Shown here: piece by piece, positions 47,679 through 64,000 of the stretch | Layout: each line of letters begins with the position of its first letter | Numbering within the stretch: the first letter of the stretch is position 1 | Source: Paracoccaceae bacterium | GTDB taxonomy: Bacteria; Pseudomonadota; Alphaproteobacteria; Rhodobacterales; Rhodobacteraceae | NCBI GenBank assembly: GCA_026989055.1 | Contig: JALSKC010000061.1 | Span: 1 to 64,000 of the forward strand | Direction: 5' to 3' | DNA: 64,000 bases | The notes under the pieces: model-generated | Told to the model about the DNA's origin: nothing | The model's database searches: none | Seen by the model: the letters and a program-made list of their open reading frames with translations, nothing else | Translations under genes and position numbers: made by a program

Positions 47679-48248
47679 TCACCAGCGCTTCAGCGCATCC
47701 TCGTCGGCATCCCGCGCCTCGACCCAGCGCGCCCCTTCGGCGGCAACCTCCTTCTTCCAGAAGGGGGCGCGGGATTTCAGATAATCCATCAGGAACTGCG
47801 CCGCCTCGAAAGCGGCCACCCGGTGCGGCGCGGCGGTAGCCACCATCATGATCCGTTCGCCCGGCTTCAGCCGGCCGTAGCGGTGGATGACGCGACAGGC
47901 TCCGAGCCGCCAGCGCCCGACGGCCTCGGCAACCATCGCCTCGATCGCCGGAGCCGTCATCGCCGGGTAATGCTCGATTTCCATGTAGTGCAGGGTGCCG
48001 GGCAAATCCCGCACCACCCCGGTGAAGCTGACCACGGCACCGATATCGGTTGCCCCGCGCGCAAGCATGTCGAGTTCCCGGCCCGGATCGAAATCCTCAC
48101 GCTGAACCCTGACTCTCTCCCCGGCCCCCTGTTCTTCACGGCCCCTGTTCTTCACGGCCTCCTGCATCCCGGCCCCCTGTTCTTCACGGCCTCCTGCAGC
48201 CCGGCCCCACCATCGCGGACCCCGGCCGCATGTTTCCCGGCGCCTCAT
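47679..48248 (-). CDS. moaE: Molybdopterin synthase catalytic subunit, extended N-terminus
   Basis: 189-aa MoaE. From VRVQREDFDPG on it matches the usual 145-150-aa protein: GAVVSFTGVVRD, HYMEIEHYPAM, HRYGRLKPGE and the catalytic Lys in KSRAPFWKKE (about 158-167). The first 45 or so residues are Arg/Gly/Glu-rich and encoded by 16/32-bp tandem repeats. No ATG or GTG sits immediately before VRVQRE. The best start is the ATG overlapping the moaD stop (ATGA at 48245-48248); an internal ATG at 48167 or GTG at 48155 would give a shorter extension. It transfers sulfur to precursor Z with MoaD. Confidence 0.85.
   Translation of the reverse strand: MRRRETCGRGPRWWGRAAGGREEQGAGMQEAVKNRGREEQGAGERVRVQREDFDPGRELDMLARGATDIGAVVSFTGVVRDLPGTLHYMEIEHYPAMTAPAIEAMVAEAVGRWRLGACRVIHRYGRLKPGERIMMVATAAPHRVAAFEAAQFLMDYLKSRAPFWKKEVAAEGARWVEARDADEDALKRW
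48121..48208. repeat. 16/32-bp tandem repeat in the moaE 5' region
   Basis: CCTGTTCTTCACGGC occurs three times at 48128-48142, 48144-48158 and 48176-48190. A larger 32-bp unit (48144-48175 and 48176-48207) repeats with one mismatch. Because 16 and 32 are not multiples of three, the copies are read in different frames (REEQ in one, VKNR in another). Confidence 0.9.
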
Positions 48249-48493
48249 CCCCCGGTCATCGGCGGAAAGAAGGCCACCTCGCGCGCACCCGCAAGGGAGG
48301 CATCGAAGCCTGTCAGCTCCTGGTCCACCGCAACCCGCAACGCGGACAGGTCGGAGAAGGCCAGCGCGTAGCGCTCCTCGCGAGCCTTCAACTCCTCGAC
48401 AAGCTCGGCCACGGTCCGCGCCGTTGTCTCGACACGCTCGCGCGGCAGGCCGATCCGCTCGCGCACCCAGGCGAAATAGACGACTTCTATCAT
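48245..48493 (-). CDS. moaD: Molybdopterin synthase sulfur-carrier subunit
   Basis: 82-aa ubiquitin-like protein ending in GG (PPMTGG), which is thiocarboxylated to carry sulfur for MoaE. It has IEVVYFAWVRERIGLP at the N-terminus and VAVDQEL in the middle. It overlaps pgsA upstream by 4 bp and moaE downstream by 4 bp. MoaD is activated by a MoeB-type E1 enzyme. The ThiF-like gene at 57.9 kb is a distant relative of MoeB, but context does not link them. Confidence 0.95.
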   Translation of the reverse strand: MIEVVYFAWVRERIGLPRERVETTARTVAELVEELKAREERYALAFSDLSALRVAVDQELTGFDASLAGAREVAFFPPMTGG

Positions 48494-49149
48494 GTCTCGT
48501 CCCTCAGGAATGGCAGCGATTTCCGTAAATAGTCAAGCCCGGTCAGCAGTGTCAGCACGGCCGCGCCCCACAGCAGGACGACCCCGCCCCACCAGGCCCA
48601 GGCCGCGCCGGCCGCCTTCCAGCGCAGCCCGAAGACATCTTCTTCCCGCCCGGCCATGATCTCGCGCAGCAGCGCCTCGTCCATGCCGTAGCTCTGCATC
48701 ACGAAGAAATGCTCGAACAGACCCTGGGAAAACAGCACCGCCAGCGCCAGCATCTGCGCCGTGGTCTTCCACTTCGCCAGCCGGGTCACCTTCAGCCTTC
48801 CCGCCGCCGCGCCCAGATACTCCCTCAGGCCGGAAACGAAAACCTCGCGAAACAGGATGATCGTCGCCGGAAGCAGGATCCAGGGGTTCATCCCCGAAAA
48901 CCCCGTCACCACCAGAAGCGCGATCACCACCATGGCCTTGTCGGCGATCGGGTCCAGCATCGCGCCGAACCGGCTTTCCTGCTGCCACAGGCGGGCGAGA
49001 TAGCCGTCGAACCAGTCGGTGACGGCCGCCAGCACGAACAGGACAAGCGCAAACCAGTCTGCCCAGGGCCGCGTGAAATACAGGAACATGATGGCGATAC
49101 CGGGGGCCGCCAGCAGGCGCAGGATGGTCAGGATGTTCGGTATCGTCAT
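48490..49149 (-). CDS. pgsA: CDP-diacylglycerol-glycerol-3-phosphate 3-phosphatidyltransferase
   Basis: 219-aa membrane protein with the CDP-alcohol phosphatidyltransferase signature spread over DWFDGYLAR, then G, then MLDPIADK. It makes phosphatidylglycerol phosphate. The start MTIPNILTILRLL at 49149 is preferred; an ATG two codons earlier (49155) is equally open. It heads pgsA-moaD-moaE after uvrC. Confidence 0.94.
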   Translation of the reverse strand: MTIPNILTILRLLAAPGIAIMFLYFTRPWADWFALVLFVLAAVTDWFDGYLARLWQQESRFGAMLDPIADKAMVVIALLVVTGFSGMNPWILLPATIILFREVFVSGLREYLGAAAGRLKVTRLAKWKTTAQMLALAVLFSQGLFEHFFVMQSYGMDEALLREIMAGREEDVFGLRWKAAGAAWAWWGGVVLLWGAAVLTLLTGLDYLRKSLPFLRDET

Positions 49150-49252
49150 GCGCATGAGCGCTTGGTAACGGTTTCCGCCGGGCAGGAAAAGCCGCAGCTT
49201 GCCGCCGGATGGCGGACCGGGCGCGCCGGCCCCGCCCCTTCGCCTTCTGCGC

Positions 49253-56405: not shown

Positions 56406-57530
56406 TCAGCCGAGCATATCCCGATAAAGCGCCTCGAAACCGGCATGCACGGCGTCCGGCGAAAAGCGGCGGCTGCGACTCAGCGCCAGCGCGTTCTGCC
56501 CCTGCTTCCGGCGCAGGCCCTCATCTTCGATGAGCCTCAGAAGCGCCCTGGCGATCGCCGCGCTGTCACCGACCGGAACCACTGCGCCAACCGCGGGATC
56601 GACAAGCTCCCGGACCCCGCCGCAATCGGTCGCCACCACCGGAAGCCCCTGCTGGAAGGCCTCGACGATGGAGATCGGCAGCGCTTCCCAGCGCGATGTC
56701 AGAAGATAGATATCGCTCGCGGCCAGAAGAGCGGGAATGTCGCCGACATGACCGAGGAAGGAAACATGGTCGGACACCCCGAGCACATCCGCCCAGCGCT
56801 GCACCAGCCCGTCAAGCGGCCCGCCTCCGGCAACCACGAAGCGGACATCCTCCCGTTGCGCGGCGATCTTGCGCGCGACCTCGATCATGATGTCGATGCC
56901 CTTCTGCTGATCGAGCCGCGACAGGCTACTTACAAGGATGCCCCCCTCACCGCTCCCCGGCAGGCCGCGGAGCAGCTTCTGGCGCACCCGGGCCACCCTT
57001 TCGGGGGGAATCGGCCCGGGCCGGTGCACGCCCAGGCCGATGACCCTCGTCCGCTCCTCCGGCAGGCCGTGGGCCACCAGCTTCCGCAGAGCCGTCCGGC
57101 TTGGTGAAACGGTCAGCGCGGCGCAACGCCGCGCCGTATGGGCAACGCTGGCTTCCCGTTCCGGGTCGGAGCCGTGATAGGTAAAGACGATCGGGATCCC
57201 CGACCGGGCCGCCGCCAGCCGGGCCACGATGACCGGCGCGGTTTCATGGGCATGGATGATCTGGATCCGGTGCCGGCGGAGGATCCGCCGCATGCGCCGG
57301 GCCACCGGAAGCAGGCGCGCAACCCGGCTGAAGACCGAGCCCCCCTCGGCCGCAACTCCGTCAAAATCCAGAAGTTCAAAGGGGGGATCATCGTTTTCGG
57401 GGCGCCATTCTCCCTCGCCTCCGCCCAGCACGACACCGTGCCCCCGGGAGCGCAGATACTCCGACAGGTCCAGAATGTGACGCTGAATTCCACCGATACG
57501 GAAATTGGTGGAAAGCTGAAGGATGCGCAT
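56406..57530 (-). CDS. GT4-type glycosyltransferase
   Basis: 374-aa GT-B fold glycosyltransferase. It begins MRILQLSTNFRIGGIQRHIL and carries the GT4 signature in the second domain: SSLSRLDQQKGIDIMIEVAR, then SRWEALPISIVEAFQQGLPV and TDCGGVRELVDP. It is likely cytoplasmic, adding a sugar to a lipid carrier or cell-surface glycan. The ATG at 57528-57530 is chosen because the protein begins with the canonical MRILQL; upstream ATGs add Arg/Pro-rich residues. It is convergent with the barrel gene and divergent from the ThiF-like gene. Confidence 0.85.
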   Translation of the reverse strand: MRILQLSTNFRIGGIQRHILDLSEYLRSRGHGVVLGGGEGEWRPENDDPPFELLDFDGVAAEGGSVFSRVARLLPVARRMRRILRRHRIQIIHAHETAPVIVARLAAARSGIPIVFTYHGSDPEREASVAHTARRCAALTVSPSRTALRKLVAHGLPEERTRVIGLGVHRPGPIPPERVARVRQKLLRGLPGSGEGGILVSSLSRLDQQKGIDIMIEVARKIAAQREDVRFVVAGGGPLDGLVQRWADVLGVSDHVSFLGHVGDIPALLAASDIYLLTSRWEALPISIVEAFQQGLPVVATDCGGVRELVDPAVGAVVPVGDSAAIARALLRLIEDEGLRRKQGQNALALSRSRRFSPDAVHAGFEALYRDMLG

Positions 57531-57905
57531 CCGGTCCGTTTCCTGCATTGGCGGGCCCGTGTCCGGACGGTCGGGCCGGCAAGGCCAGCTCGACACTAGG
57601 CTTTCCAGCGGCGACTGCAACCGGGAGGCTGGCGCGAAACGGCCGGCTGCCGAAATCCGGCAGGATTACGCGCAATTGTCCACCCGACGGGAACAATCCG
57701 TCGCCGAGCCGCCACCTGCCGACATCTTTGCGGAAATCCCCGGTTTCGCCCAGGAATTGCCAGAAAAATGCCCCGATCTCCAGCGGAGTTTCTCGCACAG
57801 GCCGGGCGAAGCCGCATGAGACGCAAAACCCGCGTGACCTGTGCACGGCAGCACGAAGACAGTCCCGGCCAACGGCCGGAGACAGCAGACCGCAGAAGGT
57901 GAAAC
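57531..57905. other. 375-bp divergent gap between glycosyltransferase and ThiF-like gene
   Basis: No confident gene. The gap should hold the promoters for both directions. A TTG-start open frame at 57676-57819 (47 residues, with AGGA 8 nt upstream) reads SVAEPPPADIFAEIPGFAQE and so on, and is the only protein-like short frame on the plus strand here. I do not call it a gene, but a search for conserved small peptides in this gap is worthwhile. Confidence 0.35.
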
Positions 57906-58850
57906 ATGCCGGATCAGCCGCAGCAGACGTCCCCCGCGCCGGCGGATTGCCCTTACGATTACGATCAGGCCTTTTCCCGCCACCGCGGCCTGATCGACGT
58001 CTCCGAACAGGAACGCCTGAAATGCACCCGTGTGGCCATCGCCGGCGTCGGCGGCATCGGCGGGCATCACGCCGCGACGCTGGCCCGCACCGGGCTGGGC
58101 CGCTTCGTACTGGCCGATTTCGACCACTACGAACTGCATAACATGAATCGGCAATACGGTGCCAGCATCGGCACGCTGGGGCGGAACAAGGCCGAGGTCA
58201 TGCGCGACATCCTGCACGGCATCAACCCCGAGGCAGAAGTGCGGCTGATGACGCGCCCCCTCGACAGGAACAGCATCGATCCCTTCCTGGAAGGGGCGGA
58301 TATCGTTATCGACGCGCTGGACATCATGGCCCAGACGGCGCGCCGTGCGCTTCTGGCCGCGGCCCGGGAACGGGGGATACCGGCATTTTCGGCCGCCCCG
58401 CTGGGGTTCGGCGGCGCCGTGTTCCACTACCACCCCGAGGGGATGAGCTACGACGAGTTCGCCGGCCTGGAAGACGGCATGAGCGAACGGCAGATGCTGC
58501 TGCACTTCCTGTGCGCGATCGGCGCGCAGGGGCCGCATCTGAAATACATGGACACCAGCGGAATCGGATGCGAAGGCGGCACGGCTCCTTCGCTCGGCCT
58601 GGCCTGCCAGATCGGCGCCTGCATGGTGGCCACCGATGTGGTGGCCCATCTGCTCGGGCGACGCACACCCAGATGGGTGCCGCGTTTCGCTCAGTTCGAC
58701 CCTTATGGGCGCAGCTACCGCGAGCGCTACCGCCCGTGGGGGGCGCGCAATCCGCTCCAGCGGCTGCGGATGGCCGTTCTCAGGCGCAGGCTGCCGGCGC
58801 TGGCCCAGGACCAGCCGGTCGCCGCCGCTCCCGCCGGCCAGGCGGGATGA
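57906..58850 (+). CDS. ThiF/MoeB-type E1-like adenylyltransferase
   Basis: 314-aa protein. It has the adenylating domain: GVGGIGG at 47-53, the D71/D73 pair followed by HNMNRQYG (N79-R82), and K95 in LGRNKAEVM. These are the ATP/Mg2+-binding features of ThiF, MoeB and UBA-type E1s. CxxC zinc motifs and a rhodanese domain are absent, as is a clear catalytic Cys. The C-terminal WVPRFAQFDPYGRSYRERYR is unlike MoeB. It is the first gene of a three-gene unit with an acyl-adenylate ligase and an MFS protein, so it probably activates a carboxylate or peptide in a biosynthetic pathway. Substrate unknown. Confidence 0.85.
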   Translation: MPDQPQQTSPAPADCPYDYDQAFSRHRGLIDVSEQERLKCTRVAIAGVGGIGGHHAATLARTGLGRFVLADFDHYELHNMNRQYGASIGTLGRNKAEVMRDILHGINPEAEVRLMTRPLDRNSIDPFLEGADIVIDALDIMAQTARRALLAAARERGIPAFSAAPLGFGGAVFHYHPEGMSYDEFAGLEDGMSERQMLLHFLCAIGAQGPHLKYMDTSGIGCEGGTAPSLGLACQIGACMVATDVVAHLLGRRTPRWVPRFAQFDPYGRSYRERYRPWGARNPLQRLRMAVLRRRLPALAQDQPVAAAPAGQAG

Positions 58851-58853
58851 TTC

Positions 58854-60440
58854 ATGTCTCTGCTGACCGAGCTCTTCCTGTCGCGGATCCGGGTGGCGCG
58901 TGACATACACCGCCACGCCTTCCGGTGCTACGGGACCCGGACGGCGCTGCTGTTTCCGGAGCGCGCGACGAGCTACCGGGAACTTCAGGAGCGCAGCTAC
59001 CGGCTTGCGCAGGCATGGCGGGCGCTGGGGCTGAAAAAGGGCGACATCGTCTTTGCGCAGGTCGATGCCGACCCCGCCTTCTTCGAGCTCCGCATCGCGG
59101 CGCTCGAAGCGGGCATCGTCCTGGCGAGCTTCCACCATCGCCATGCCCCCGATCTTCTGGCCCATGCCGCCCGCGCCGCGCCGCCGGCCCTCTATGTCGT
59201 CGATCCGGGCTACGCCCCGGGCTGCGCCGAAGCCGTGCGCACCGCCGCTCCCGGCACCGTTATCTGGCAGGACCCGGGCCGCCCCGGCGGCGATTACGAA
59301 ACCAGTCTCGCGACACGGGCCCCGCTGCAGTCCAGCGAAACCGTCCACCCGCGGGACCCGATGAGCCTGGGCTTCACCTCGGGAACGACCGGCCCCCCGA
59401 AAGGGTTGCTTTCCAGCAACGGGGCGGCCGTTGCAAGCCTCAAGCTGATCATCCGCAACCTGAACATCAGGCCCGACCGCAAGGCACGCAACGTCTCCCT
59501 TTCCGCGATCCCGCTGACGGGCGCCGGCTCCGGGCTGATCCTGCCCACGATGCTGAGCGGGGGAACCCTGGTGGTGATGCGGGAGCACTCGACAGCGGCG
59601 ATACTGGAAAGCATCTCCCGCCACCGGGTGACCCGGCTGTTCCTCACCCCGAGCCAGCTTGTGGACCTGCTCGACCTCCCCCCCGGAGAACGGGCCGCAA
59701 CCGATAGCCTGGAGCACATCATCTACGGCACGGCACCGATGCCCGCCGCCAGGCTGCGGGAGGCCATTGCCACCTTCGGGCCGATCCTGCAGCAGGGCTA
59801 CGGGCAGGCCGAAGTCCTGCCCCCCGTCAGCCTGCTGCGCCCACAGGATCACATGCGGGGCGACCGGCCGGCCCCGCGCAGGGTGCTGCGCTCCTGCGGG
59901 CGGGTCGTGAAGGGAGTGGAACTGCGCATTGCCGGCGCCCGCAGGGTTCCGGGGTGCCACGACGCGGTCGGTGCGATCCACGTCCGCACACCGACCCGTT
60001 TCAGCGGCTACCTGGAACCGGCCCGCAACGGCGGCGTCATCCTCGATGACGGGTATTTCGTGACCGGAGATCACGGCTTCATCGACGACGAGGGCTACCT
60101 GCACGTTCTCGGCCGCGAAGCCGAGATCATAGATTCTCCCGCCGGGCCGATCCATCCGCGGCTGGTCGAGGAGGAAGCCCACGAGCATCCGGCGGTGAAG
60201 GAGTGCTGTCTGGTCGAGCATGCCGGCAAGCGGGTGCTCTGCCTGGCGTTGCGCTCCCGGCACCGGCAGGGCCGGAAAGATGAAATCGCCGCCGAGGTCG
60301 GCGTCACGCTCAGGGCGGCCCTGCCGGAAGCGCTCCGGCCGGACAGGATAGTGATCTTCCCGGCGCTGCCACGCAGCTTTCTCTGCAAGATCGCACCCCG
60401 GGACATCAGGAGGAAGCTGGCCGATGAACACGCTGCCTGA
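58854..60440 (+). CDS. AMP-binding acyl-adenylate ligase
   Basis: 528-aa ANL-superfamily enzyme. Core motifs are complete: P-loop TSGTTGPPKG (175-184), YGQAE (about 320), the hinge block VTGDHGFIDDEGYLHVLGRE (about 402-422) and the catalytic Lys (K512) in SFLCKIAPRDIRRK. It should activate a carboxylic acid to the acyl-adenylate and transfer it to CoA or another thiol. No carrier protein, condensation or ketosynthase domain is present, so a stand-alone ligase is indicated. It starts 4 bp after the ThiF-like gene and overlaps the MFS gene by 17 bp, so the three are one operon. Confidence 0.88.
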   Translation: MSLLTELFLSRIRVARDIHRHAFRCYGTRTALLFPERATSYRELQERSYRLAQAWRALGLKKGDIVFAQVDADPAFFELRIAALEAGIVLASFHHRHAPDLLAHAARAAPPALYVVDPGYAPGCAEAVRTAAPGTVIWQDPGRPGGDYETSLATRAPLQSSETVHPRDPMSLGFTSGTTGPPKGLLSSNGAAVASLKLIIRNLNIRPDRKARNVSLSAIPLTGAGSGLILPTMLSGGTLVVMREHSTAAILESISRHRVTRLFLTPSQLVDLLDLPPGERAATDSLEHIIYGTAPMPAARLREAIATFGPILQQGYGQAEVLPPVSLLRPQDHMRGDRPAPRRVLRSCGRVVKGVELRIAGARRVPGCHDAVGAIHVRTPTRFSGYLEPARNGGVILDDGYFVTGDHGFIDDEGYLHVLGREAEIIDSPAGPIHPRLVEEEAHEHPAVKECCLVEHAGKRVLCLALRSRHRQGRKDEIAAEVGVTLRAALPEALRPDRIVIFPALPRSFLCKIAPRDIRRKLADEHAA

Positions 60441-61848
60441 AACCCCGACGGTCCGGCCGCTGCCGCTCGGCAGCAAGTTCAGCTACGGGCTGGGAGCGGT
60501 TGCCTATGCGCTTCCCTATCAGGTGATGGCCAGCTTCTTCCTGTTCTATACCACCGCAATCCTGAAGGTTGCCCCTGCGGTCGCCGGCTTCGTCATCGCG
60601 GTTTCCGTGCTCTGGGATGCAATCACCGATCCGTGGATCGGCCATGTCTCGGACCGGAGCCGCTCGGACCGGTTCGGCCGGCGGCACAAGTTCCTGCTGC
60701 TGGGCGGCATCGGAACCGCGATCGGGAGCATCCTGCTGTGGTCGATCCCTCCCGACATGAATGTCTCCGCCAAGATCGCGCTGCTTCTGGGCGCGCTCCT
60801 GTTCGTCAAGACGATGAACACGGTCTACGGCGCGCCGTATTACGCGCTGGGCGGCGCCATCAGCCAGGATTACGACGAACGCTCCTCCCTGCAGGGATGG
60901 CGGGCGGCGTTCCACGTCCTGGGCATGATCATGGCGCTGGTCGGCACCCAGGTCTTCATCTTCCGCTCGACGCCGGAATTTCCGCGCGGCCAGCTCGATC
61001 CGGCCGCCTATCCGAAGATCGGCGTGGCGGTGGCGCTCATCACCCTGGTCGTTGCCCTGATCGCCGTCCTGACGATCCCGAAGGACCACCGGCCGGGCGG
61101 CGGCGCAAGCAGGAGAGGGCTTGCCGCCCAGATCCGCGCCGCGCTGGCCGGGTCGAGCTTCCGGGCCATCGTCCTGGTGATCTTCCTGATCGAGGTCGCC
61201 TTTCAGATGATCGTCAGCATCAGCACCCATGTGAACACCTTCACCTACGGCCTGAACGGGCCGCAGATGGGCATTCTAGGGCTGGCCATACTGGGCATGT
61301 CGGTGCTTTCGCAGCCGTTCTGGGTGCTTCTGTGCCGCCGGTTCGAAAAGCGCGACGTGCTGATCCTGGGCATGGTCTTCGGGCTGATCGGGTTCGTCGG
61401 CATGCCCTGGGTGCATGTGGGGCTGGGGTGGTTGCCGATCGGAACCCCCGGCAGCCTGTGGACCCTTGCGCTCTTCAGCGCCGTGGCCGGAATCGGCAAC
61501 GGGGCCTTCATGAGCATTCCCTTCTCGATGGTGTCGGATGCCGCCGACGAGGGGCAGCTGACCAGCGCGCAACGCCAGGAAGGGCTGTATTTCGGGCTTT
61601 ACACCTTTGCCTACAAGCTCGGCATAGCGGTCAGCGTCCTGATCGGCGGAATCCTCCTGGACATGATCGGCTTCGTCGCCGGCGCCGACGAACAGAGCCC
61701 CGAAACCGCCTATCAGCTGGCCATGGCGCCCACCTGGCTGCTGGTCGGGATGACCCCGCTCATCCTGTGGGCCCTCCTGCACTACCGGATCGACCGGCGG
61801 GCCCATGCCCGCATCTCCTCCCGGCTTGCCGCGCAGGAGGCCGGCTGA
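60424..61848 (+). CDS. MFS transporter, GPH (glycoside-pentoside-hexuronide)-like
   Basis: 474-aa, 12-TM protein. It has KFSYGLGAVAYALPYQ, the motif DAITDPWIGHVSDRSRS in the first half, and the Arg-rich GRRHKFLLLG loop. These are typical of MFS_2/GPH symporters related to MelB and to some exporters and lipid transporters. Charged residues in the early helices suggest a cation-coupled mechanism. It probably moves the product or precursor of the ligase/ThiF pathway. It ends about 258 bp before rplB. Confidence 0.88.
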   Translation: MNTLPETPTVRPLPLGSKFSYGLGAVAYALPYQVMASFFLFYTTAILKVAPAVAGFVIAVSVLWDAITDPWIGHVSDRSRSDRFGRRHKFLLLGGIGTAIGSILLWSIPPDMNVSAKIALLLGALLFVKTMNTVYGAPYYALGGAISQDYDERSSLQGWRAAFHVLGMIMALVGTQVFIFRSTPEFPRGQLDPAAYPKIGVAVALITLVVALIAVLTIPKDHRPGGGASRRGLAAQIRAALAGSSFRAIVLVIFLIEVAFQMIVSISTHVNTFTYGLNGPQMGILGLAILGMSVLSQPFWVLLCRRFEKRDVLILGMVFGLIGFVGMPWVHVGLGWLPIGTPGSLWTLALFSAVAGIGNGAFMSIPFSMVSDAADEGQLTSAQRQEGLYFGLYTFAYKLGIAVSVLIGGILLDMIGFVAGADEQSPETAYQLAMAPTWLLVGMTPLILWALLHYRIDRRAHARISSRLAAQEAG

Positions 61849-62106
61849 AGGCATCCCGGCAACCTTGCCGGCGGCAGCGCGGCGGGCAGCGGAACGGGGT
61901 GGGGCGGCGGGACGGAGACGAAATCCGACACACCTATGGACAGGGCATTCCAAGCCCGCTATATCCGCCCAGTCCCGCGGCCCCGGATTCGCTCCGGGGC
62001 CCGTGATGTCTTGAATTCGGGGACCTTCGGAACCCTGCGCAATGGCCCGAACGGGCCCAAACATGGTGGGTCGCAAGACCCGCAAAGCTGACGGAAGACA
62101 GAAAGC
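61849..62106 (+). promoter_or_regulatory. rplB leader region with three hairpins
   Basis: Between the MFS stop and the rplB ATG, GGCCCCGG/CCGGGGCC (61979-62001) forms an 8-bp stem with a 7-base loop that could terminate the MFS transcript or fold in the leader. GGCCC-GAAC-GGGCC (62044-62057) and GGGTC-GCAA-GACCC (62068-62081, a GNRA-type loop) follow. The latter two sit just before the rplB ATG and resemble a ribosomal-protein-operon leader. No rplW remnant is visible. Confidence 0.45.
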
Positions 62107-62949
62107 ATGGCACTCAAGTCGTACAAGCCGACGACGCCGGGCCAGCGCGGGCTGGTGCTGATCGACCGTTCGGAGCTTTGGAAAGGCCGCCCGGTCAAGT
62201 CCCTCACCGAAGGGCTGACCAAGAAGGGCGGACGGAACAATACCGGACGGATCACGATGCGCCGCCGCGGTGGGGGGGCAAAACGCCTCTACCGGATCGT
62301 GGATTTCAAGCGCAACAAGTTCGACGTTCCGGCAACCGTGGAACGGATCGAATATGACCCGAACCGGACGGCCTTCATCGCGCTGATCAGGTATGAGGAC
62401 GGCGAACAGGCCTATATCCTTGCCCCGCAGCGGCTGGCCGTGGGCGACAGGGTGGTCGCCTCGGCAAAGGCCGATATCAAGCCCGGAAACGCGATGCCGT
62501 TTTCCGGCATGCCGATCGGCACCATTGTCCACAACATCGAGATGAAGCCCGGCAAGGGCGGCCAGATCGCACGCGCCGCGGGCACCTACGCCCAGTTCGT
62601 CGGTCGTGACGGCGGTTACGCGCAGATCCGCCTGTCCTCGGGCGAACTGCGGATGGTGCGCCAGGAATGCATGGCCACCGTCGGCGCGGTCTCGAACCCC
62701 GACAACTCCAACCAGAACCTCGGGAAAGCGGGGCGCAACCGTCACCTGGGCAAGCGCCCAAGCGTGCGCGGTGTGGTGATGAACCCGGTCGATCACCCGC
62801 ACGGCGGCGGCGAGGGCCGCACCTCGGGCGGCCGCCACCCGGTCACCCCCTGGGGCAAGCCGACAAAGGGTGCCAAGACCCGCAACAGGAAAAAAGCGTC
62901 CAGCAAGCTGATCATCCGCTCGCGGCACGCCAGGAAGAAGGGGCGCTAG
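62107..62949 (+). CDS. rplB: 50S ribosomal protein L2
   Basis: 280-aa L2, full length. It has [20 protein letters not shown] at the N-terminus, [12 protein letters not shown]-type (here [12 protein letters not shown]) and the peptidyl-transferase-associated [17 protein letters not shown]. It is followed by rpsS after 3 bp. In the usual S10 operon rplW precedes rplB; here an accessory MFS gene does. Confidence 0.98.
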
Positions 62950-62952
62950 ACC

Positions 62953-63231
62953 ATGGCACGTTCTGTCTGGAAAGGGCCGTTCGTCGACTCCTATGTTCTC
63001 AAGAAGGCCGAGAAGGCCCGGGAAAGCGGCCGCAACGAGGTCATCAAGATCTGGTCGCGCCGCTCGACGATCCTGCCTCAGTTCGTGGGGCTCACGTTTG
63101 GCGTCTACAACGGCCGCAAGCACATCCCCGTAAGCGTCACGGAAGAAATGATCGGCATGAAGTTCGGCGAATTCTCTCCGACCCGGACCTATTACGGACA
63201 TGCCGCCGACAAGAAAGCGAAGCGGAAATAG
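62953..63231 (+). CDS. rpsS: 30S ribosomal protein S19
   Basis: 92-aa S19, full length. It has [36 protein letters not shown] and [20 protein letters not shown] at the C-terminus. It starts 3 bp after rplB and ends 2 bp before the rplV ATG. Confidence 0.98.
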
Positions 63232-63233
63232 TC

Positions 63234-63614
63234 ATGGGCAAGGCAAAGAATCCCCGCCGCGTGGCCGAAAACGAAGCGATGGCGAAAACCCGCATGCTTC
63301 GCGTGAGCCCGCAGAAACTGAACCTGGTGGCCGCCATGATCCGCGGCAAGAAGGTGGACAAGGCGCTGACCGACCTGACGTTCTCGAAAAAGCGCATCGC
63401 GCAGGACGTCAAGAAATGCCTGCAGTCGGCGATCGCCAATGCCGAGAACAACCACGGGCTGGACGTGGACGAGCTGATCGTCGCCGAAGCCTGGGTCGGC
63501 AAGAACCTGGTCATGAAACGCGGCCGGCCGCGGGCCCGTGGCCGTTTCGGGCGGATCATGAAGCCGTTTTCGGAAATCACCATCAAGGTGCGGCAAGTCG
63601 AGGAGCAAGTCTGA
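63234..63614 (+). CDS. rplV: 50S ribosomal protein L22
   Basis: 126-aa L22, full length, with [20 protein letters not shown] and the extended beta-hairpin region [17 protein letters not shown]. Its stop overlaps the rpsC ATG (ATGA). Confidence 0.97.
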
Positions 63615-64000
63615 TGGGGCAGAAAATCAATCCGATCGGCATGCGCCTTCAGGTCAACCGCACCTGGGACAGCCGCTGGTATGCGAAGACCGCCGATTTC
63701 GGCGACCTGCTGCTTGAAGACATCCGCATGCGCGAATTCATCAACAGGGAATGCAGACAGGCAGGCGTGTCCAAGGTGATCATCGAGCGCCCGCACAAGA
63801 AGTGCCGCGTCACCATCCACACCGCGCGCCCCGGCGTCATCATCGGCAAGAAGGGCGCAGACATCGAAACCCTGCGCCGCAAGCTGGCGAAGATGACCGA
63901 CAGCGAACTGCACCTCAACATCGTCGAGGTGCGCAAGCCGGAAATGGACGCGCAGCTGGTGGCCGACAGCATCGCCCAGCAGCTCGAACGGCGGATCAGC
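63614..64000 (+). CDS. rpsC: 30S ribosomal protein S3 (N-terminal part, runs off window end)
   Basis: First 129 codons of S3, cut by the window edge. It starts [20 protein letters not shown] and includes the KH-domain core [20 protein letters not shown]. It overlaps rplV by 1 bp. The operon order rplB-rpsS-rplV-rpsC is standard. Confidence 0.97.

Follow-up and report, generated by a model that had tools for sequence, protein, structure and literature searches.

According to two reports (PMC10404671, PMC12856293), N-acyl oxazolones are made by an N-acyltransferase, a ThiF-like cyclase and a flavin oxidase: the ThiF-like enzyme uses ATP to cyclise N-acyl amino acids, and the flavin oxidase desaturates them. 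The pathways described are OxzAB of Pseudoalteromonas rubra and TyzACB and TrzAS of mycobacteria, and a third paper (PMC12479983) also deals with such gene sets. Here we analysed a 64,000-nucleotide stretch of DNA from a Paracoccaceae bacterium (contig JALSKC010000061.1, positions 1 to 64,000; hereafter the window), which belongs to contig 61 of a 2.77-Mb assembly that is 99% complete. It carries a cassette of three genes encoding a ThiF/E1-like adenylating enzyme, an acyl/aryl adenylate ligase of the ANL superfamily and a GPH/MFS_2 transporter. Like the oxazolone pathways, the cassette pairs a carboxylate-adenylating enzyme of the ThiF family with an acyl-activating partner in a short operon, and its related ThiF genes lie beside N-acyl-amino-acid-synthase (NAS)-type acyltransferases, with flavin oxidases in 5 of 15 genomes; unlike them, it has an ANL ligase and an MFS_2 transporter in place of the N-acyltransferase and the flavin oxidase. 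The cassette is rare and conserved in distant marine bacteria, and looks like a rearranged version of this recently described pathway to cyclised fatty-acid/amino-acid compounds. A literature search, with most subscription papers outside its reach, found no paper on the ThiF-ligase-transporter gene set. The original prediction, made from the letters of the window, had put the system forward as a candidate undescribed one, which within that search holds for the gene set but not for ThiF enzymes of the related type, which are published.

The ThiF-like gene (57906..58850, + strand, 314 aa; PF00899, E=6.5e-45) is separated by 3 nt (58851-58853) from the ligase gene (58854..60440, + strand, 528 aa; PF00501, E=2.6e-53; PF13193, E=1.6e-5), which overlaps the transporter gene (60424..61848, + strand, 474 aa; PF13347 MFS_2, E=3.2e-65) by 17 nt (60424-60440). 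The open reading frames (ORFs) and Pfam matches thus bear out the three gene identities that had been predicted, as well as the overlap; the gap, predicted to be 4 bp, measures 3 nt. An AGAAGG lies 6 nt 5' of the ThiF ATG, and an AGGAGG within the ligase gene lies 10 nt 5' of the transporter ATG. By a codon-usage score whose training set excluded the cassette, the three forward frames scored 43 (ThiF), 86 (ligase) and 133 (transporter), and long antisense or other-frame ORFs over the cassette, such as that at 57666-60476 (936 aa), scored at most 1. The G+C content of the cassette is 0.676, against 0.681 for the window. The proposal of a single operon is upheld in the sense of an operon-like unit, with its recurring gene order, 3-nt gap and 17-nt overlap.

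We scanned a species-level genome collection with the ligase alignment, using two short ligase peptides as the probe, a design that does not imply absence elsewhere. The scan yielded 15 loci, 13 with close ligase relatives (48-57% identity) and 2 with ordinary distant ANL enzymes (30% and 22%). The transporter gene directly follows that of the ligase in 12 of the 13 loci and the ThiF gene directly precedes it in 8, with contig ends truncating the ThiF gene in L069 and L074 and the transporter gene in L072 and L074. Counting the window, the ThiF-ligase-transporter order is found in nine genomes, five of Rhodobacteraceae type (Alphaproteobacteria) and four of Methylophaga (Gammaproteobacteria), several of the assemblies being metagenome-assembled genomes (MAGs). 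Two congeners of the window genome carry the cassette, G002 (L072, contig 448; Marinosulfonomonas sp.) and G003 (L070, contig 490; Rhodobacteraceae bacterium); a third, G001 (99% complete), has no cassette-type ThiF, its best score being 52 bits against a cut-off of 266 bits. Within the family of the window genome, just 3 of the 394 sampled genomes, the window's included, have the ligase at E<=1e-100. One genome has the ligase without an adjoining transporter in a 13.9-kb contig (L080) and a cassette-clade ThiF on another contig; there the ligase gene (L080:5686-7299) is flanked by an ornithine-cyclodeaminase-family gene and, as judged by eye, a tryptophan 2,3-dioxygenase-like gene.

Distances between ThiF proteins correlate with those between ligases (r=0.97 for 7 cassettes, permutation p=0.002); the correlation is 0.88 for ThiF and transporter and 0.86 for ligase and transporter (12 loci, p=0.001). 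Cassette G+C spans 0.40-0.68 and stays within about 3 points of its own locus in 11 of 12 loci, the yardstick being the retrieved locus, which on short contigs is mostly the cassette itself; in L069 the cassette is 5 points lower (0.58 against 0.63). Since the order recurs, the proteins diverge in parallel and the G+C content follows each locus except L069, the cassette is a long-standing unit of patchy spread rather than a chance neighbourhood. The original prediction had proposed co-occurrence as a check, and the occurrence in both Rhodobacteraceae-type bacteria and Methylophaga, together with the parallel divergence, speaks against genes confined to close relatives or with independent histories. 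Recent plasmid transfer was considered and rejected: in the plasmid collection the best listed ligase is 32% identical and ThiF matches reach 45% at most.

The window ThiF passes a single NCBIfam model, NF006077 (PRK08223), with 331 bits for a cut-off of 266, and the full-length cassette ThiFs of G457, G458, G464 and G466 also lie above this cut-off. PRK14851 (260 bits) and PRK14852 (230 bits) come next among the profiles. The cassette ThiF resembles the other NF006077/PRK08223 ThiFs and the PRK14852 fusion in belonging to the same curated family over cut-off, in its 35-45% identity and in a C-terminal PS motif. It has the adenylation residues GxGGxG, D71/D73, R82, K95, D136 and D139, which are common to all E1-like enzymes, the MoeB rows of the alignment included, and do not mark cyclases. 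A group of 29 ThiF rows is set apart by a PS motif and a Tyr (Phe in one row), both in the C-terminal half, and the MoeB rows have neither.

The phylogenetic trees of ThiF exclude L010, the fragment L071:7279-7716 and the partial ThiFs of L069 and L074. The tree without L006 places this group (100/99), which also holds the acyltransferase- or oxidase-linked ThiFs, apart from TcdA and MoeB, and within it all 12 cassette-type ThiFs fall into a single clade (97/100); when L006 is included (branch length 4.2), the cassette clade is broken and the cassette label needs two changes. The cassette ThiFs thus differ from the acyltransferase-linked NF006077 ThiFs in forming a clade of their own and in having no acyltransferase beside them. 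On these sequence features, the window ThiF is predicted to be an ATP-dependent carboxylate-activating cyclase.

The genomic context of the subfamily was explored in 398 sampled genomes of the phylum, 16 of which, the window's included, have an NF006077 match over cut-off. In 13 of the other 15, all lacking the cassette, an acyltransferase over the TIGR03694 cut-off is encoded no more than 5 kb from ThiF; in the remaining two (G408, G352) a FeeM-type synthase is found just upstream. An NAS-type acyltransferase is therefore near ThiF in all 15. L054 and L055, which belong to the acyltransferase-linked group of the tree, have synthases of the FeeM type. A nitroreductase-type oxidase is adjacent or fused to ThiF in five genomes (G067, G406, G408, G433, G452); all five oxidases score below their family's own cut-off and were judged by position and E value. 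In L054 the genes for FeeM, ThiF and the oxidase make up a three-gene operon, and in L061 ThiF and oxidase are fused. On a Nitratidesulfovibrio vulgaris plasmid (L099:8068-11037), a 989-aa FeeM-ThiF-nitroreductase fusion, whose ThiF part is 44.9% identical to the window ThiF, sits in an XrtA/PEP-CTERM polysaccharide locus. NF006077 ThiF genes near TIGR03694 acyltransferases were seen at L056-L068. Representatives of the loci (10 + 9 proteins scanned) include TIGR03694 (PEP-CTERM/exosortase-associated) acyltransferases, a PrsT-type TPR protein and PEP-CTERM proteins; a long TPR protein is present in 10 of 17 retrieved NF006077 loci, the single one scanned being of PrsT type. This suggests that in such loci the exosortase-associated acyltransferase makes N-acyl amino acids, which the ThiF then cyclises. 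The cassette ThiF may likewise close a ring, since the other sampled members of its subfamily all lie near NAS-type genes. An acyl-conjugate product, allowed for in the original prediction, fits these ties.

The ligase shares features with two kinds of enzymes. FadD8-type fatty acyl-CoA ligases provide its best relative of known structure (236 bits); the amide-bond synthetase McbA (6sq8) comes second in sequence (189 bits), followed by feruloyl- and 4-coumaroyl-CoA ligases. In a fold search with the ligase model (pLDDT 80.6), the amide-bond synthetases ShABS and McbA rank 2 and 3. McbA and ShABS are reported to form amides directly from acid, ATP and amine (PMC6282839, PMC10804368), and E400 of McbA to be one of three entrance carboxylates that may favour amines (PMC6282839). 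In all 14 cassette-family ligases a C-terminal Lys is invariant (K512 in the window), which we take to be the catalytic one and which is a feature common to amide-bond synthetases and CoA ligases. The Lys of the A8-region motif DRxK(D/E), present in the three CoA ligases aligned, is replaced by Ala, Pro or Gly in 14 of 14 cassette-family ligases; McbA also lacks it and has Gln. Compared with FadD8-type ligases, the cassette-family enzymes have thus lost this Lys and, in 9 of 14, also the Gly of the loop that follows it. The ligase is thus predicted to be a CoA ligase or an amide-bond synthetase, its loop residues giving a mixed picture and no more than a hint of an amide-forming enzyme.

The closest solved relative of the transporter is MFSD2A, a sodium-dependent lysophosphatidylcholine symporter, at the distant score of 108 bits, against 59 bits for MelB; the TIGR00792 gph model gives 167 bits, below its cut-off of 231. 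The motif WDAxTDP (W64-D65-A66-x-T68-D69-P70) is invariant in the transporter alignment and also present in MFSD2A, and its two Asp residues presumably bind the cation. Because the transporter is closer to MFSD2A than to MelB, the comparison favours an amphiphilic substrate.

With the gene content, its conservation, the protein families, the adenylation residues and the ThiF clade as observations, we infer the substrates, the amide-forming role of the ligase, the cyclisation and the direction of transport as follows. We tentatively propose, with less than even confidence, that the cassette is a variant module for acyl-amide activation and cyclisation, in which the acylated substrate comes from the ligase and the transporter moves an amphiphile. 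The ANL ligase would first adenylate a fatty or aryl acid and pass the acyl group either to CoA or to an amine, which is probably that of an amino acid, the acyl transfer being performed by an N-acyltransferase in related loci. The PRK08223-type ThiF would then adenylate the carboxylate that is still free in the N-acylated product, whose amide oxygen would serve as the internal nucleophile and displace AMP, giving a cyclised, oxazolone-like product. The MFSD2A-like transporter would finally carry the amphiphile across the inner membrane.

Several observations weigh against this proposal. The nine cassette genomes have no linked N-acyl synthase or flavin oxidase, so that two thirds of the published oxazolone pathway is absent from them. 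TIGR03694 is over cut-off in none of the nine, and FeeM in two (G456, G464), at 29-31 bits in a 230-aa frame on a contig other than that of the cassette; in the four Methylophaga genomes TIGR03694 gives no hit at E<=0.001 and FeeM none at E<=0.01. The search for the flavin oxidase family in the nine genomes returned nothing beyond short matches of at most 23 bits. These assemblies include MAGs, in which a missing gene is not proof of absence. In the window genome, the only nitroreductases are two small ones on other contigs. Its acyltransferase-like genes number two and encode PF13444 proteins; an acyltransferase-like ORF comes directly after one of them, by eye an ornithine-lipid pair. Moreover, the TrzS-family profile NF005901 gives 66 bits on the window ThiF, below the ThiF (97) and MoeB (86) profiles; the proposed link to the oxazolone cyclases TyzB, OxzB and TrzS runs through family, gene context and PRK14852-like fusions. 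On the ligase side, the CoA ligase FadD8 (8ivi) leads the PDB sequence relatives by 47 bits, and the top fold match, PchD, is an aryl-adenylate ligase. The A8-loop Gly, lost in 9 of 14 ligases, is kept in 5; identity to McbA and ShABS is about 25%, and the residue that we equate with E400 of McbA by the spacing to Y402, in the loop where CoA ligases have Gly, is Asp in 6 of 14 ligases alone and Pro in that of the window. Transporters of the MFS_2 family act mostly in import, and this habit would favour the same here. Finally, four genomes have the ligase and transporter with no NF006077 ThiF over cut-off (L075, L076, L077, L078; best 54-83 bits): L075 and L077 are MAGs labelled Actinomycetota, L076 is Cognatishimia and L078 an uncultured member of the Rhodobacteraceae. 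Since the pair stands without a cassette-type ThiF in these genomes, ThiF is dispensable to it.

Several of these points also agree with a pathway of uptake and activation, a possible reading that we consider nearly as likely as the acyl-amide cyclisation module. Here, the MFSD2A-like symporter, together with a TonB receptor where present, would import an amphiphilic or aromatic acid, and the ligase would make its CoA thioester for catabolism, with ThiF using ATP to close a ring or transfer an acyl group on some of the imported substrates. The FadD8 match of the ligase, the invariant WDAxTDP shared with MFSD2A and the ligase-transporter pairs of L075-L078 are in its favour. So is the Methylophaga neighbourhood: in 3 of 3 loci with enough flank (L071, L073, L081), a TonB-dependent receptor adjoins the ThiF genes, upstream and on the same strand, as identified with Pfam in L071 and by 66-81% identity in L073 and L081. 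However, when we compared the ORFs within 10 kb of the cassette in 13 loci, this receptor had no match in the other 10, some of which end at a contig edge, and it is siderophore-receptor-like with a score below cut-off. Nor is any catabolic gene family common to the Rhodobacteraceae-type, Methylophaga and Actinomycetota flanks, whose cross-group matches are restricted to generic ABC, response-regulator and SDR proteins at 24-27%. Uptake and activation would also leave unexplained the clade of the ThiF, otherwise tied to NAS-type enzymes.

The Methylophaga loci bear on two further readings. In L071, L073 and L081 the TonB receptor gene comes first, then ThiF in two or three tandem copies, and then the genes for ligase and transporter; the fourth locus, L074, is cut by contig ends. 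In all three, ThiF copy a has D139, which by analogy with MoeB we take to be the catalytic Asp, and copy b has E139. A type-a ThiF stands alone in the Marinosulfonomonas genome G464, which also has a cassette ThiF. L071 has a third copy, the first in order, which is reduced to a fragment of 145 aa, and a transposase-like fragment was noted by eye in L073; both suggest a duplication of ThiF followed by decay. A fuller version of the acyl-amide proposal, which we consider unlikely as a whole, would have an ANL amide-bond synthetase replace the N-acyltransferase and join a free acid to an amino acid, and ThiF cyclise the conjugate without a desaturase; the saturated, azlactone-type product would be moved by a bacterial MFSD2A-like lipid transporter, and the D139 ThiF and its D139E paralogue in Methylophaga would form an asymmetric heterodimeric E1-like cyclase. 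Even less probable, in our view, is a role of the cassette in modifying or inactivating a foreign compound, with ThiF activating an N-acyl amino acid or signal molecule that other bacteria have made and that is imported ready-made. The four Methylophaga genomes without TIGR03694 or FeeM matches, three of them with two to three tandem ThiFs and a TonB receptor, are consistent with such a role; its substrate is hypothetical, and no hydrolase or sensor gene is common to the flanks across lineages in the 13 loci.

That the window ThiF is a sulfur-carrier E1 of the MoeB/ThiF type or an MccB-like peptide modifier, with incidental neighbours, is very improbable. It has the general PF00899 fold, its best single-sequence PDB matches over the shared adenylation domain are E. 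coli ThiF and MoeB, and moaD and moaE lie about 9 kb away. The three genes are, however, conserved together, and the PS motif and Tyr are as in acyltransferase-linked ThiFs and not as in the MoeB rows. ThiF, MoeB and TcdA profiles give 65-97 bits on the window ThiF, and the scores fall short of the respective cut-offs for PRK08644 (97 of 159 bits), adenyl_thiF (90 of 275), PRK05690 (86 of 266) and moeB (78 of 377). CxxC zinc-binding pairs are typical of MoeB/ThiF; no CxxC was found in the window ThiF nor in the 11 cassette ThiF rows of alignment A3, where four of the seven acyltransferase-linked rows have one. The genome has a separate MoeB on contig 4 (300.6 bits for the PRK05690 cut-off of 266). 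The original prediction had drawn a comparison with MccB and peptide modification, which fails: MccB matches residues 28-112 alone, at 44 bits. The family scores under cut-off, the missing CxxC and the partial MccB match led us to reject these identities; by its sequence, the window ThiF is not ThiF, MoeB or MccB. The AlphaFold model of ThiF was poor (mean pLDDT 52.9), and the fold search accordingly rests on the ligase model. We give virtually no credence to a defence-type E1 system, which was rejected on the PADLOC results: hits of E1-E2 models to the ThiF domain (64 bits at best) cover the shared E1 core alone, the ligase and transporter have no PADLOC match, and no E2, cyclase or protease partner is found among the ten window genes scanned.

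The surroundings of the cassette vary between lineages. In the window, a glycosyltransferase gene (56406-57620) is divergent from the cassette and ribosomal genes directly follow it, both as predicted. The intergenic region between the glycosyltransferase and the cassette (57621..57905) is the expected site of the cassette promoter; a consensus scan found no sigma-70-like site in it. Downstream, rplB starts 258 nt after the cassette, and the gap contains a perfect G+C-rich hairpin with a 9-bp stem (61979..62001, + strand) and no T-run, a possible terminator or attenuator. Its stem is present in the predicted fold, but the stretch as a whole is not more stably folded than shuffled sequences (z=-0.80), and a terminator scan did not pick it up. 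The ribosomal run (62107-64000 onward, the contig extending to ~64747) reads rplB-rpsS-rplV-rpsC-rplP, all but rplB named by eye. As rplW was not seen upstream of rplB within the window, the S10 cluster looks split, with the cassette at its 5' edge. About 9 kb upstream of the cassette, on the other strand, lie a moaE-like gene (47679-48248) and moaD (48245-48493; TIGR01682 over cut-off), with a pgsA-like gene (by eye) beside them within 47679-49155; the predicted lack of a ubiquitin-like partner nearby is therefore correct for the cassette and not for this wider neighbourhood.

Elsewhere, the cassette is followed by a copper chaperone and an ABC transporter in G003 and preceded by a sigma factor and an anti-sigma-like gene in G002. 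G002 (L034) and L079 share an upstream block, with a divergent gene (48% identity), an extracytoplasmic function (ECF) sigma factor (56%) and an anti-sigma-like gene (~40%), which ends 150-170 nt before ThiF; the sigma/anti-sigma-like pair (L034:1598-2883, L079:4739-6045) adjoins the 5' side of ThiF on the same strand and is a possible local regulator of the cassette. G003 (L035) and L079 have an ABC-transporter region in common. Flanks are fully alike among the three Methylophaga loci and likewise between the two Actinomycetota loci, which are close kin. A fused hydantoinase/5-oxoprolinase A-B gene convergent with the cassette (L069:4243-7908) was seen in the L069 locus alone. The extra conserved neighbours that the original prediction had looked for thus exist locally only, as the TonB receptor in three Methylophaga loci and the ECF sigma/anti-sigma-like pair in two Rhodobacteraceae-type loci.

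If the acyl-amide cyclisation proposal is true, the cassette is a compact three-gene system in which a stand-alone cyclase is combined with a possibly amide-forming ligase and a bacterial symporter of the lipid type. Carboxylate-activating ThiF cyclases would then use partners beyond N-acyltransferases, and because they would work with such other partners, searches demanding an acyltransferase beside the ThiF gene would overlook clusters of this kind. For the related loci, our data suggest a concrete hypothesis, in which the PEP-CTERM/exosortase-associated acyltransferases work together with the 'hypothetical' PRK08223 proteins.

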